Below, in pieces: positions 5,442-34,992 of a stretch of DNA of 35,367 bases; the first letter of the stretch is position 1; each line of letters starts with the position of its first letter. This DNA is from Gemmatimonadota bacterium (GTDB lineage: Bacteria; Gemmatimonadota; Gemmatimonadetes; Gemmatimonadales; Gemmatimonadaceae): contig QHVE01000031.1 of NCBI GenBank assembly GCA_003223455.1, positions 6,281 to 41,647 of the forward strand. The letters run 5' to 3'. The notes under the pieces are model-generated. The model did not search any database. It saw only the letters and a program-made list of their open reading frames with translations, and was not told the DNA's origin. A program made the translations under genes and the position numbers.

Positions 5442-5450
5442 TTCTTAACC

Positions 5451-5628
5451 AGTGAGTTGGTGAGTTGGATAGTTAGTGAGTTGGTCGGTGAACTGGTGAA
5501 TGGAACGGCCCTGGCTCAACCAGCCTGGAGACCACGTGTGGGGGTCGCACGCTGGTCGAGTGGCCGGTGGAGTCGACTCGCCAATCAACCGACCAACCAA
5601 CCAGCGATCCGACTCACGAACTCACCCA
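5451..5628. repeat. Period-8 inverted array with central hairpin (intergenic element 1)
   Basis: From 5451 the plus strand reads as consecutive 8-base units: AGTGAGTT, GGTGAGTT, GGATAGTT, AGTGAGTT, GGTCGGTG, AACTGGTG. The right side (5581-5628), read on the minus strand, gives GGTGAGTT, CGTGAGTC, GGATCGCT, GGTTGGTT, GGTCGGTT, GATTGGCG. This is the same order with about 36 of 48 matches by hand count. The middle holds a smaller hairpin, CTCAACCAGC (5515-5524) against GCTGGTCGAG (5551-5560). The element fills the whole spacer between the acyl-CoA dehydrogenase stop (which it overlaps) and the rpiB leader. Function is unknown. Confidence 0.7.
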
Positions 5629-20848: not shown

Positions 20849-20887
20849 GCGCACCCGCGCACTCCCGCACCCGCGCACTCCGCACCC
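20849..20887 (+). repeat. Period-8 array directly before purH (intergenic element 3)
   Basis: Five consecutive units occupy the whole purN-purH spacer except for seven bases: GCGCACCC, GCGCACTC, CCGCACCC, GCGCACTC, CGCACCC. The last unit abuts the purH ATG. There is no purine-rich ribosome-binding site in this spacer. Unlike the other arrays, it has no inverted partner. Confidence 0.6.
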
Positions 20888-22420
20888 ATGCCTCGCGCCC
20901 TTCTCTCCGTCTCCGACAAGACCGGACTGCTCGATCTCGCTCGCGGCCTGCACGCGCTCGGCTGGGAGCTCATCTCCACCGGCGGCACCGCGCGCGCGTT
21001 GCGCGAGGCCGGCGTTCCGGTACGCGACGTCGCCGACGTGACGCAATTCCCCGAGATGCTCGACGGCCGCGTGAAGACCCTGCACCCCGCCGTGCACGGT
21101 GGACTCCTCGCGCGACGCGATCTGCCGGAGCACATGACCGCGATCGCCGAGCATGGCATCGCGCCGATCGACCTCGTCGTCGTCAACCTCTACCCATTCC
21201 GACAGACGGCGTCGCGCGCCGACGTCACCCCCGAGCAGGTCATCGAGCAGATCGACATCGGTGGGCCGAGCATGCTGCGCTCCGCGGCGAAGAACTTCGC
21301 GTCTGTGACGACGGTCGTCGATCCGGCGGACTATCCGAGCGTGCTCGCGGCGTTCACCGCGAACGACGACGACCTCGACTTCCGCCGCCATCTCGCGGCG
21401 AAGGTGTTCGAGCACACCGCGGCATACGACGCGGCGATCGCGTCCTGGTTCGCCGGTCAGCGCGCCGAGCGCTTTCCCGAGCGTCTGTGCCTCCCGCTCG
21501 AGCGCGCGCAGGCATTGCGCTACGGGGAGAATCCCGGGCAGGCCGCGGCGTTCTACGTCGAGCGCACTGGAGCCGGGCTGGCGGGACTCGCGCAGAAGGG
21601 CGGCAAGGAGCTGTCGTTCAACAACCTGCTCGACCTCGAGGGCGCACTGCTGGCGACCGAGCCGTTCGGCGACCAGCCCTGCTGCGCGATCATCAAGCAC
21701 ACGACACCCTGCGGGCTCGCCACCGGGGCGGACGCGCTCGAGGCGTATCGCAAGGCACTCGCGTGTGATCCCGTCTCGGCGTTCGGCTCGGTGATCTCCT
21801 TCACCGTGCCTGTCGACGATGCGGCGGCCGAAGCGGTGTCCGGGCTGTTCGTCGAGTGCGTCGTCGCGCCGTCGTTCAGTGCGGGCGCGTTGGACATCCT
21901 CGGCCGCAAGAAGAATCTGCGCGTGCTCGAGGGCGTGGCGCGCTGGTCGCGCGGAGCGCTCGACTACAAGCGCGTGCGCGGCGGCCTGCTCGTGCAGGAG
22001 CGTCCCCCCGCGTCGATCGACGACAGCGCGTGGCGCGTCGTGACGAAGCGCGCGCCGACCGACGACGAGCGTCATGATCTGCTCTTCGCCTGGCGCGCCG
22101 TCGCGAGCGTGAAGTCGAACGCCATCGTCCTGGCGCGCGACGGCGCGACGATCGGCATCGGTGCCGGACAGATGTCACGCGTCGATGCGGCGTTTCTCGC
22201 CGTGCACAAGGCGACGCTCGCCGGCCACGCCACGGGCGGCTCGTCACTCGGCTCAGACGCCTTCTTCCCCTTCCGCGACGGCGTGGATCAGGCGGTCGAG
22301 GCCGGCGTACGGGCGATCGTGCAACCCGGCGGTTCGGTGCGCGACGCGGAGGTCATCGCCGCCGCCGACGAGTATGGCATCGCGATGGTGTTCACGGGGG
22401 TGAGGATGTTTCGGCATTGA
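20888..22420 (+). CDS. purH: Bifunctional AICAR formyltransferase / IMP cyclohydrolase
   Basis: Carries out the last two steps to IMP. The 510-residue protein has both domains. The N-terminal cyclohydrolase/MGS-like domain (about 1-195) has [21 protein letters not shown] and [17 protein letters not shown]. The C-terminal transformylase has [13 protein letters not shown], the catalytic [11 protein letters not shown] block, SFNNLLDLE and the C-terminal [18 protein letters not shown], with GGSVRD near the end. It starts 46 bases after purN, with only a repeat array and no ribosome-binding site between them, so initiation is probably coupled or weak. It is the last gene of the valS-to-purH run. 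Confidence 0.97.
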
Positions 22421-22590: not shown

Positions 22591-23079
22591 ATGCGCAAAA
22601 TGACGATCGGAAGCAGTGCGCTTGCGCTCGCCGCGGTTCTCGCGGTCGGCGCCTGCAGTAGCGGCAGCAACCGCGACAGTACTGCTGGCACGAGCGGTGG
22701 TGAAGTCGGCGCCTCGGGAGCGGGTGCCGCAGGGACGAGTGGCGCTGGCGGAGCGATGGGTACGAGCGGCAGCGCCGGTACGTCGACGGATGCGTCCGGC
22801 TCGATGTCGGGCACCGGCGCAGCGGGTTCGACGGGCACGGGCGCAGCCGGAACCAGCGCATCAGGCACGAGCGCGACGGGCACCGGCGCGACGGGCACCG
22901 GGGCGATGACCGACAGCGCGTCACGCGGCCGCTCCAGCATGGGGACCGGCACGTTGAACGACAGTACCACGCGCAACCGTCGGGGCTCGAACACGAACAC
23001 GGGCACCGGAACGAGCGGCACGACGGGCACCGGCAGCACGGGCACGAGCGGCACCGGCGGCACGGGCTCTCGCCCGTAA
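22591..23079 (+). CDS. Low-complexity Gly/Thr/Ser/Ala-rich lipoprotein
   Basis: A 162-residue predicted lipoprotein. The signal peptide is residues 1-21 with lipobox AVGAC and the lipidated C22. The mature part is almost wholly Gly, Thr, Ser and Ala in short GTSG/GTGA-like repeats, with a short polar break (about 108-135, several Arg and Asn). It has no hydrophobic core, so it is likely disordered or an extended surface stalk. No domain is recognised. Translation signals are convincing (AGGAG four bases before the ATG). It has its own spacer on both sides and looks monocistronic. Confidence 0.75.
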
Positions 23080-32833: not shown

Positions 32834-33691
32834 TCAGCGCCCTTTCACCTCGCGGATCTTCACGTTCCGAAACCACGCATCATCGCCGTGGTCCTGCAGC
32901 ACGATGTGCCCCGTTCGGCGCTGCGCATACCAGGGCATCGAGCGGAACTTGCTCGCCGCCAGCGCCGAGTCGAGCCTGGGCGAGCCGAGCTCGTAATCCA
33001 CGACCTTCACGCCGTTCAACCAGTGCTCGCCGTGCGTGCCGACGAACACCACGCGCGAGTGGTTCCACTCGCCGATCGGCTTGAGCTGCTTCTGCTCGTT
33101 CGGTGTGATCAGGTCGTAGAGTGCCCCCGACCGATGCGTGGGCAGCTTGCCATCGGAGTGCCGGTCGTCGTCGATCATCTGATACTCGAAGCCGATTGCC
33201 GAGTGCGACACGCCCGGCGTTCCCGTGGCGGGGCGCAGCACGGTCGACGGCTGGCCGCCGGAGAGCTCCTCAGACACGTTGTACTTCAACCCGCTGTTCC
33301 CCGCCGGCGACATCTTCCAGTCCCACTCGAGCTCGAAGTCGCGGAACGTCGCGACGGTCATGAGATCACCGCCAGGAGGACGATGGCCGTCGGGACCGGC
33401 CGCGACCTGTTTCGTCGCCACTTTTCTGATCGCGCCGTCCTCCACCCGCCAGTGTCCCGCCGGGACGCCGGGATAGCCAAGGCCACGCCATCCGTCGAGC
33501 GTCTTCCCGTCGAACAGGAGCCGCCAGCCGGCCTTGCGCTCCGCCGCGGTGAGCTGGTTCGGAGCAGCCGCTGCATCGACGGCTTGCGCCGACACCGGAG
33601 CGGCTCGGCCAGCCGCGGCGAGCTGCATGAGCGCGATCATCGCGAGGGACGACACGCCGACGCGCCCCCCCGTGCGATTCGTGTTCGTCAT
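32834..33691 (-). CDS. DUF1080 (3-keto-disaccharide hydrolase/lyase family) protein, secreted
   Basis: A 285-residue protein with a signal peptide (1 to about 35) followed by one DUF1080 (PF06439) beta-sandwich. Landmarks are GWRLLFDGKTLDGWRG, FRDFELEWDWKMSPAGNSGLKYNV, SHSAIGFEYQMIDD, GALYDLI and HWLNGVKVVDYE, and the domain ends VKIREV. Characterised relatives cleave 3-keto-glycosides made by glycoside 3-dehydrogenases. The ATG at 33691 is preceded by CTCTCAGGAG at the same kind of spacing as in susC; the much longer open frame upstream is a shadow of the DUF6807 gene. It lies downstream of DUF6807 and a TIM-barrel isomerase/epimerase, and upstream of lacI. The substrate is not known. Confidence 0.9.
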   Translation of the reverse strand: MTNTNRTGGRVGVSSLAMIALMQLAAAGRAAPVSAQAVDAAAAPNQLTAAERKAGWRLLFDGKTLDGWRGLGYPGVPAGHWRVEDGAIRKVATKQVAAGPDGHRPPGGDLMTVATFRDFELEWDWKMSPAGNSGLKYNVSEELSGGQPSTVLRPATGTPGVSHSAIGFEYQMIDDDRHSDGKLPTHRSGALYDLITPNEQKQLKPIGEWNHSRVVFVGTHGEHWLNGVKVVDYELGSPRLDSALAASKFRSMPWYAQRRTGHIVLQDHGDDAWFRNVKIREVKGR

Positions 33692-33744: not shown

Positions 33745-33908
33745 GGTTCATCGGTGACACGGTTAAACGGTGAGATGGTTGGATGGTTAGACGGTTGGAC
33801 GGTTCACGGGCGGCCTCGGGAAGCTCCTGCGTCCCCGAGGCCGGCCGTCTAGCCGTACAACTGTGAAATCGTTCAACCGCCCGCCCGCCTACCCGACGGT
33901 TCACCGCG
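33745..33908. repeat. Period-8 inverted array with central hairpin (intergenic element 5)
   Basis: Eight consecutive 8-base units fill 33745-33808: GGTTCATC, GGTGACAC, GGTTAAAC, GGTGAGAT, GGTTGGAT, GGTTAGAC, GGTTGGAC, GGTTCACG. The right side (about 33844-33908), read on the minus strand, contains GGTTGAAC, GATTTCAC, AGTTGTAC and GGCTAGAC in the same 8-base register. Between the arms lies the hairpin at 33811-33843. The element runs from the DUF6807 stop codon (33901-33903 is inside the last unit) to 54 bases before the DUF1080 start. The architecture matches 5451-5628. Confidence 0.7.
33811..33843 (-). terminator. 10-bp hairpin at the centre of intergenic element 5
   Basis: CGGCCTCGGG (33811-33820) pairs perfectly with CCCGAGGCCG (33834-33843) around a 13-base loop. 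It lies about 58 bases after the DUF6807 stop on the minus strand. The stem sequence is the same as the core of the thrS hairpin at 10448-10487. It has no T-run, so termination is only a candidate function. Confidence 0.5.
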
Positions 33909-34992
33909 TGAATGCCGTGTAGTACTTCGTGATGTCCGCCGGCGTTGCGGTGCCATCGAGGATCAGGATCTCGTGGCGGAACGTCACCGACGTGTTCGGC
34001 GCGAGCTTGTAGTTCGTCGCCTCCGCCTTCCCGTTCGTGAGCGACTTCTGCCCAAGCGGATTGGCGGCGAACAGGCCGTAGCCGCGGGCATGCCAGTACG
34101 TCGGGTAGCCCCAGTTCTTGGGGTGATCGAGGATGGCGAGCGTCACCGGCGTCCCACTCAGATCGCCGTGCAGCATCGTCCACTTGCCGCGCGTCCCCCA
34201 CACGTCGTCGCCCTGCTTGCCCTCGGACGACACGTAGTGCCCATGCACGCCGGCGGTGTCGAGCTTGGCGACCGCCGTCACGTTGCCCTGAGCGTCCATG
34301 AACTTCTCCGGCTGCAGCGACGGGTGCTCGAGCCACCGCGCCACGCGGATGCCGATCACTCCTTCCTTGTTGTCGTTGAACGAGACTTCCTTGTCGAGCG
34401 CGGTGAGCGTCGTGATGCGGTCGATCGTGCGCGCACCGGGCGAGGCGCGAAACACGTAGCGCGTTTCCTCGCGCAGGATCGGCGAGTTCTCGGGGGTCAC
34501 CCACTCCTCGGTCGTCTCGAGCACGCCCTCGCCCGAGCCACTCTTCACCGAACGCACCGATCGGTGCACGATCGTCCCGTACTTCGACGCCTGCGCGGCG
34601 GGGATGGCGTCCGAGTTGTTCCAGAAATCGAGCCCGTTCACGTCGCCGTAGTTGAACCACATGCCGGCGTGATGGGGATGATCGACGCGCTCGCCGGTGC
34701 GCGGCTCGAGCGGATACCCGCGCGTCACGACGAGACCGTTCGCCGAGCGCAGGGGATACAGCACCGGCTTCTTCAGCGTCGTCGGCCAGATGTACGACGT
34801 GAACGGCTTGCCGCCGACGAGGATGTCGACGCGACGATCGGTCTCGCGCGGGATGACCTCGACGAAGTTCGGATCGGACGAGCTCTGCATGGCGGTGGTG
34901 CCGGAGGCGGCGCCCGCGCACGCGCCCGCGCCCAGCAGCGACGCCATCACGAGCGGGAGCGCGGCGGACAGAGTGGAACGACGGTGGATCAT
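33901..34992 (-). CDS. DUF6807 (PmoA-like) family lipoprotein
   Basis: A 363-residue predicted lipoprotein: the signal peptide ends LLGAGAC with C25. The rest is a single DUF6807 domain, often labelled PmoA family although unrelated in function to methane monooxygenase. It is recognised by YLxxLRSANGLVVTRGYPLEP, DHPHHAGMWFNYGDVNGLDFW (104-124) and WLEHPSLQPEKFMDAQGN. The clustered histidines suggest a metal or substrate site. The family typically sits beside DUF1080 and sugar isomerase/epimerase genes, as here, and its activity is unknown to me. No ribosome-binding site is evident before the ATG. An 82-base gap precedes it. Confidence 0.85.
   Translation of the reverse strand: MIHRRSTLSAALPLVMASLLGAGACAGAASGTTAMQSSSDPNFVEVIPRETDRRVDILVGGKPFTSYIWPTTLKKPVLYPLRSANGLVVTRGYPLEPRTGERVDHPHHAGMWFNYGDVNGLDFWNNSDAIPAAQASKYGTIVHRSVRSVKSGSGEGVLETTEEWVTPENSPILREETRYVFRASPGARTIDRITTLTALDKEVSFNDNKEGVIGIRVARWLEHPSLQPEKFMDAQGNVTAVAKLDTAGVHGHYVSSEGKQGDDVWGTRGKWTMLHGDLSGTPVTLAILDHPKNWGYPTYWHARGYGLFAANPLGQKSLTNGKAEATNYKLAPNTSVTFRHEILILDGTATPADITKYYTAFTR

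Follow-up and report, generated by a model that had tools for sequence, protein, structure and literature searches.

A dispersed palindrome with mirrored octamer arms behind gene ends in a Gemmatimonadota genome

The DNA analysed here is a 35,367 nt stretch from a Gemmatimonadota bacterium (the window; assembly GCA_003223455.1, contig QHVE01000031.1, positions 6,281 to 41,647), and at 33745–33900 it carries an element made of an array of 8-base repeats, a hairpin and a mirrored array, placed directly behind the stop codon of a gene. What is such an element, and what keeps it in place? The element is one of a set of dispersed copies that have a conserved hairpin core, mirrored arms of units of about 8 bases with G/C skew and a preference for gene 3′ ends, and that are present, absent or swapped between sister species. 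We put it at about an even chance that these are 3′-end hairpins acting on transcripts arriving from both sides, with arms that would be made by slippage and template switching. The piece displayed above is 33745–33908, all coordinates are those of the whole stretch, and the host genome (G000) comprises 4.96 Mb in 127 contigs.

Structure of the element

The spacer between the DUF6807 gene and the 3-keto-disaccharide hydrolase gene is occupied by a left arm, a hairpin and a weaker, mirrored right arm (Table 1). Read on the plus strand from 33745, the left arm consists of the units GGTTCATC, GGTGACAC, GGTTAAAC, GGTGAGAT, GGTTGGAT, GGTTAGAC, GGTTGGAC and GGTTCACG. The tetramer GGT[T/G] recurs eight times from 33745 to 33804 at a spacing of exactly 8 nt, and a pattern of four such units gives five overlapping matches in this arm compared with 0 in 100 dinucleotide shuffles of the window. 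Significance was taken from the shuffles and not from the reversed pattern, which is a poor control because TTGG or GTGG recurs within these arrays. Identity within the left arm is 0.69 at lag 8, 0.10–0.36 at lags 3–7 and 9–15, and 0.72 at lag 16 (the double period). These values confirm the eight exact 8-base units described in a first-pass annotation of the window, as does base pairing (33811–33820 with 33834–33843) for its perfect 10-bp hairpin. The mirrored array that it reported on the right is real though degenerate, with an identity of 0.56 at lag 8 and AACG or GACG ending most units, every 8 nt.

The stop codon of the DUF6807 gene (33901–33903, minus strand) falls within a GGTGAACC unit, the outermost of the right arm. 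A second element in the window, first noted at 5451, had been described as similarly placed, and at each of the two the stop of the incoming gene does lie within the edge unit. Folding of 33745–33900 is stronger than that of dinucleotide shuffles of the whole element (z −3.0) and of versions in which the arms alone were shuffled (z −4.0). No gathering-level Rfam match was found in the window, and assignment of the element to a known RNA family was rejected.

Table 1. Positions of the element, its parts and related features in the window.
Feature	Position	Strand	Description
Left arm	33745..33808	+	Eight units of the form GGTK(N)4, each of 8 bases (consensus near GGTTNNAC); G-rich strand toward the core
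Central hairpin core	33811..33843		Stem CGGCCTCGGG/CCCGAGGCCG (10 bp, perfect) around loop AAGCTCCTGCGTC; belongs to the GGCCTCGGGAAGC..GC..CCCGAGGCC core family
Right arm	33844..33900	-	Degenerate mirrored array; reverse complement GTTGAACG ATTTCACA GTTGTACG GCTAGACG GCC
DUF6807 (PF14100) gene	33901..34992	-	TGA stop inside the outermost unit of the right arm
3-keto-disaccharide hydrolase (PF06439) gene	32834..33691	-	Downstream of the DUF6807 gene
Second window element, class A	5442..5621		GGTGAGTT-type arms around a core ..GGCCCTGG..CCAGGGCC..; flanked by rpiB and an acyl-CoA dehydrogenase gene

Core families and classes

About 45 copies with the core GGCCTCGGGAAGC..GC..CCCGAGGCC were recovered from this genome, the 33745 element among them. 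When up to 3 mismatches were allowed, there were 34 matches on the plus strand and 32 on the minus strand in this genome, and 54 and 53 in its sister G007, with near-symmetrical sites scoring on both strands. The other eight members of the genus gave 0. Across the phylum, the core (up to 2 mismatches) was absent from 393 of the 395 genomes sampled and present in two, while the reversed pattern, used as a control, gave 0. Twelve of the 13 pairs of the core stem are retained in 93–100% of 58 distinct cores, a figure that the pattern search itself biases toward intact stems; the exception is one internal mismatch, and double changes are few. The core is about 30 nt long, and the element with its arms about 130–190 nt.

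Three classes can be told apart, two of which (B and C) are defined among the copies with this core. Class B, which includes the 33745 element, has a GGCC-flanked core and ACGGTTNN-like arms. Class C has a core flanked by AAC..GTT, and arms such as GTGACTCA, GGTGAGTG or GGGGATGC. Class A, to which the second window element belongs, has a longer core, GAACGGCCCTGG..CCAGGGCCGTTC. The difference in consensus that had been seen between the two window elements is one between separate families (class B and class A). Class A elements are palindromic, about 180–190 bp in size, and amplified in this genome, to which they are confined. The class A copy at 5442..5621 is identical to that at L089 at 153 of 175 positions, and two copies at unrelated loci share 99% identity over 150 columns, indicating that class A spread recently. 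Mixed arms also occur, GGGGATGC being paired with AACTCACC at L067–L069 and L076. At about 3400–3450 of L057 (G007), a different dispersed, palindrome-like sequence, GTCATCCCGAGCGAGCGCAGCGAGTCGAGGGATCT, adjoins a class C core, and a close variant of it is found in L268.

Genomic siting and shared anatomy

Statistics on siting come from sampled 20-kb stretches rather than whole genomes, with one genome per species (mostly draft metagenome assemblies) and a simple home-made gene caller. The G007 stretches are mostly contigs picked for carrying a core, so that counts from them are not rates.

Nearly all elements (81 of 85) lie in spacers, two are inside a called gene and two at contig edges. By gene context, 47 of the 85 are convergent, 31 tandem and 3 divergent, against 37, 146 and 59 sampled background junctions, respectively. 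At convergent sites the median distance from core to stop codon is 39–58 nt, and the stop codon is repeated at +8 in 17 of 122 element-facing gene ends compared with 1 of 320 control gene ends. The polarity of the arms is nearly constant, left arms being G-rich in 84/85 elements and right arms C-rich in 81/85. The best period is 8 in 78 of 98 arms, and 7 in 13. Shuffling the arms gave folding z values of −7.9 (class A), −2.5 (class B), −3.1 (class C) and −2.8 (G007).

Orthologous junctions in a sister genome

The G007 genes for DUF6807 and the 3-keto-disaccharide hydrolase overlap (ATGA, the hydrolase start lying over the upstream stop), with no 209-bp spacer between them, and the 180-bp spacer that holds the second window element is about 15 bp there. 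Both elements therefore seem to have been inserted, or to have grown later, in this lineage, and the one at 33745 is apparently recent, parting two genes that overlap in the sister species. The flanks of these two empty sites are too diverged for a target duplication to be read by eye. Other relatives examined have different neighbours at the DUF6807/hydrolase site.

On the long G007 stretches, comparable junctions carry an element in both species in 8 cases, in this genome only in 6, in G007 only in 3 and in neither in 21 (Fisher P 0.008, a modest result and partly ascertained, as some G007 stretches were picked for carrying elements). Where both species have an element, its class often differs. 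Four junctions have a class A or A-like element here and a class C or B element in G007 (L087|L288, L089|L143, L104|L268 and L013|L201). At L042|L279, the class C core and the layout are common to both species and both arms have changed, from GTGAGTG/AGTGACTC to GGGGATGC. At L031|L145 the class B core is common to both; here the left arm has expanded ACGGTTTA and the right arm, independently, a different unit, TTTTAGCG.

The same layout in relatives

Within the genus, the units found in the same layout are GGTGAGAC in G003, GGTGGGTA in G008, GGTTGGAC in G002 and GGGGATGC in G007; G003, G008, G002 and G004 carry mirrored or one-sided arrays of these or further units (GGTGAGAC, GGTGGGTA, GGTTGGAC, TAGGTCGG, ACACAGAG). 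In G003, the arms at L228 flank a terminator-like hairpin with A- and T-tracts. In G024, from another genus of the family, the mirror is clearer than in the classes above, and each locus tends toward its own unit, mirrored within the locus: comparison of 16 array-bearing spacers with their own reverse complement gave a score of 42.1, comparison with those of other loci one of 9.1, and 0 of 3000 permutations did as well. Its units include GGGCAGGA, GGACAGGAT, GACTGAAGAAG and GCGTGGCT.

Since relatives hold mirrored arrays of other units, the layout, and not one unit, is the trait common to the family. The first-pass annotation had suggested that the period and the dyad are what is maintained. 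This stands in so far as the layout recurs with other units and cores, and junctions swap units. It is not a matter of period and dyad alone, because the core sequence is conserved within a class; periods, moreover, vary (8 or 7 in this genome, 7–11 in G024), and a strictly fixed period of 8 is rejected.

Two sets of arrays in the family were seen besides these. Mirrored arrays with near-perfect arms and periods of 11 (GACTGAAGAAG) and 9 (GGACAGGAT) are found at L310–L319 (G024:C4), several of them within 1 Mb of one contig, and CACAGAG-type 8/9-mer mirrored arrays, with a unit that may also occur in other phyla, are found in two genera (L180:14329, L185:5902, L190:5076 and L319:6330).

Comparison with known repeats

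A literature search for intergenic palindromes of Gemmatimonadetes found nothing. The closest published case is that of the inverted GGGAATC heptamer pairs of Xanthomonas; arrays of GGGAATC or GGGGA(C/T)T heptamers are described from Xanthomonas and Nostoc (Rehm et al. 2015, PMC4692102). In Xanthomonas, the heptamers are on the coding strand, overlap stop codons or lie close to them and are rare between divergent genes, 70–75 pairs are in converging (mirrored) orientation with potential stem-loops, and copy number varies between relatives, two of which have 83% of sites in common (PMC4692102). The elements described here likewise have a short, tandem, G-rich sense-strand unit close behind stop codons, in mirrored pairs. 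They differ in having mostly 8-base degenerate units of several types per genome, instead of one 7-base unit with intact GGG tracts that forms G-quadruplexes. They also have a conserved hairpin at the centre, and at orthologous junctions they are often replaced. The units GGTTNNAC, GGTGAGTT and GTGACTCA do not fit GGGNATC or contain an intact GGG, and only GGGGATGC of G007 comes near.

Repetitive extragenic palindromic (REP) sequences, together with bacterial interspersed mosaic elements (BIMEs) and REP doublets forming hairpins (REPINs), are palindromes scattered outside genes, close to 3′ ends, in numerous copies that share a core (as defined in PMC12306157). The present elements share the extragenic location, the palindromic stem-loop, the common motif and the many copies; REP sequences measure about 14–40 nt, against about 30 nt for the core here and about 130–190 nt for the element with its tandem-repeat arms. 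Class A resembles miniature inverted-repeat transposable elements (MITEs) in being palindromic, of 180–190 bp, amplified in one genome, and near-identical at different loci; unlike in MITEs, the arms here vary in unit and length. In having a GC-rich hairpin some tens of bases at most from stop codons, chiefly where genes converge, the elements are reminiscent of bidirectional intrinsic terminators. To our knowledge, octamer arms are not part of known terminators. The TAACTGA heptamer direct repeats of Beggiatoaceae also form short tandem arrays with a fixed unit length, scattered over intergenic regions; unlike the arrays here, most of them immediately precede start codons, and they are hardly ever inverted (PMC4679880).

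Possible function and origin

A course of events can be proposed in which lineage-specific, dispersed, interrupted palindromes come to lie immediately after stop codons, for the most part where genes converge. Transcription from either side would then give a GC-rich hairpin, extended where the arms pair, and this may end transcripts and/or shield their 3′ ends, keeping converging genes from reading into each other. Replication slippage of 7–9-mers, as suggested for the 7-mers of Xanthomonas (PMC4692102), could lengthen the arms, and template switching across the hairpin, a process that creates and repairs hairpin arms (PMC8794818), could together with recombination between arrays copy units from arm to arm and from locus to locus. 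The outcome would be the same layout with different repeat words in each species.

A number of observations weigh against this account. The U-tract that follows the stem of an intrinsic terminator is lacking at 33811–33843 (no long U-tract follows the core), and a terminator scan made no call there; such tracts are dispensable in the terminators of many bacteria (PMC8355165). The 33745 copy separates co-oriented genes that overlap in G007, and a terminator at this point would cut off the second gene unless it has a promoter of its own. A mobilising enzyme was not found. Few such array spacers occur in random stretches of this genome, so most gene ends do without arrays. In class B, the two arms of a locus are no more alike than arms taken from different loci (11.5 vs 12.3, P 0.78), and exchanging right arms between loci does not weaken folding (own minus swapped +0.8 kcal); both results speak against strong selection for pairing along the whole arms.

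The compensatory pairing that the first-pass annotation had proposed to test for is thus unsupported for class B at the level of the locus, and was rejected there on the permutations, the arm swaps and the in-register pairing. Outside the 8 nt that adjoin the core, classes B and C show no preference for pairing in register, and the common register claimed for the two arms is correspondingly weak (class B, 0.29 vs 0.27–0.28 one unit off). Class A is likewise without a locus-specific arm match, and in G007 the match is weak (P 0.09). Class C of this genome does have one (16.1 vs 11.0, with 0 of 5000 permutations as good), and a right-arm swap weakens its folding (own minus swapped −11.1 kcal).

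The strongest alternative is that the arrays have no function and are tolerated behind genes. Slippage-prone, selfish or neutral repeats would grow by slippage, be mirrored by template switching, be copied by recombination, and survive only where harmless, behind stop codons and away from promoters. We regard this as quite possible. It accords with the independent expansion of different units in the arms at L031, the mixed arms, the class B arms without a locus-specific match, the restriction of class A to one genome, and the lack of arrays in most random spacers; purging at promoters predicts few divergent sites, and template switching is known to mend as well as create hairpin arms (PMC8794818). 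It does not readily account for the same core hairpin being retained at many loci, for a convergent enrichment well beyond mere avoidance of divergent junctions, or for the tendency, modest and partly ascertained as said, of an element in one species to co-occur with one at the orthologous junction, even of another class.

Mobilisation as a REP/REPIN-type element by a REP-associated tyrosine transposase (RAYT, Y1) is unlikely, although dispersed copies are many, presence and absence vary between the sister genomes, and Y1_Tnp genes occur in exactly the two genomes of the genus that bear the core (one in G000, two in G007, none in the eight others). Beside the Y1_Tnp genes stand GGGGTCAGACTCC or GGGGTCAGAGTA repeats but none of the cores described here, the same layout is found in G003, G004 and G008, which gave no Y1_Tnp match, and no GTAG-type tag was noticed beside the core by eye, no scan for it having been made. 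In REPIN/RAYT systems, cognate elements flank the transposase genes; here L225–L227 carry GGGGTCAGA-type repeats, and the hypothesis was rejected on account of these wrong flanking repeats, the phyletic match notwithstanding. The Y1/RAYT-type transposase genes at L225, L226 and L227 (G000:C32; G007:C29 and C229) have GGGGTCAGACTCCTTG or GGGGTCAGAGTA direct and inverted repeats beside them, and similar repeats form period-13 to period-19 arrays at L168 and L207.

Nor is it at all probable that the arrays serve as translation stops, each unit carrying a stop codon and the period, not divisible by 3, catching read-through in every frame. Compared with shuffled arms, stop codons in the core-ward direction are 1.5–1.8 times commoner in every class. 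Each of the three frames contains a stop in 72 of 169 arms, and the lags that score best are 8 and 7 and hardly ever 6 or 9. Outward stops are raised too, however, GGGGATGC, GGTTGGAC and GGGCAGGA are without an inward stop, and periods of 9 and 11 occur outside this genome. The shuffle test also overstates significance here, because a repeated unit multiplies any motif within it, which leaves the case weak. That the arms were copied from the product of a telomerase-like or defence reverse transcriptase, with a species-specific RNA template adding G-rich 7–8-mers, would fit the G-rich units, their fixed strand polarity and their species-specific sequence, but is barely credible and is refuted for RVT_1-type enzymes, none being found in the six genomes concerned (G000, G007, G003, G008, G004 and G024), and the units vary within an array as the product of a single template would not.

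Returning to 3′-end hairpins that may act from both sides, a broader and tentative proposal is that they represent a class defined by layout rather than sequence: mirrored 7–11-mer arrays around a hairpin, in which the repeat word is replaced wholesale between species and loci while site, polarity and mirror order persist. This would be a bacterial counterpart of the concerted evolution of satellites: slippage and template switching would drive it, and the arrays would be retained since any such hairpin ends or shields transcripts from both sides. If layout persists while sequence turns over, searches by homology (Rfam, BLAST, repeat families) would overlook such elements whenever a new genome is screened, and the number of gene-end hairpins in high-GC environmental phyla would be underestimated. 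Orthologous junctions with swapped units offer a natural test between selection on hairpin shape and replication errors that alone build and mend long palindromes.

Other arrays in the window

Two further arrays were seen in the window. At 22829–23067, CGACGGGCACCGGC-type arrays with periods of 15 and 24 lie amid several overlapping open frames. A period-8/16 array of GCGCACCC / CGCACCCGCGCACTCC at 20849–20887 stands directly before a gene that starts at 20888.
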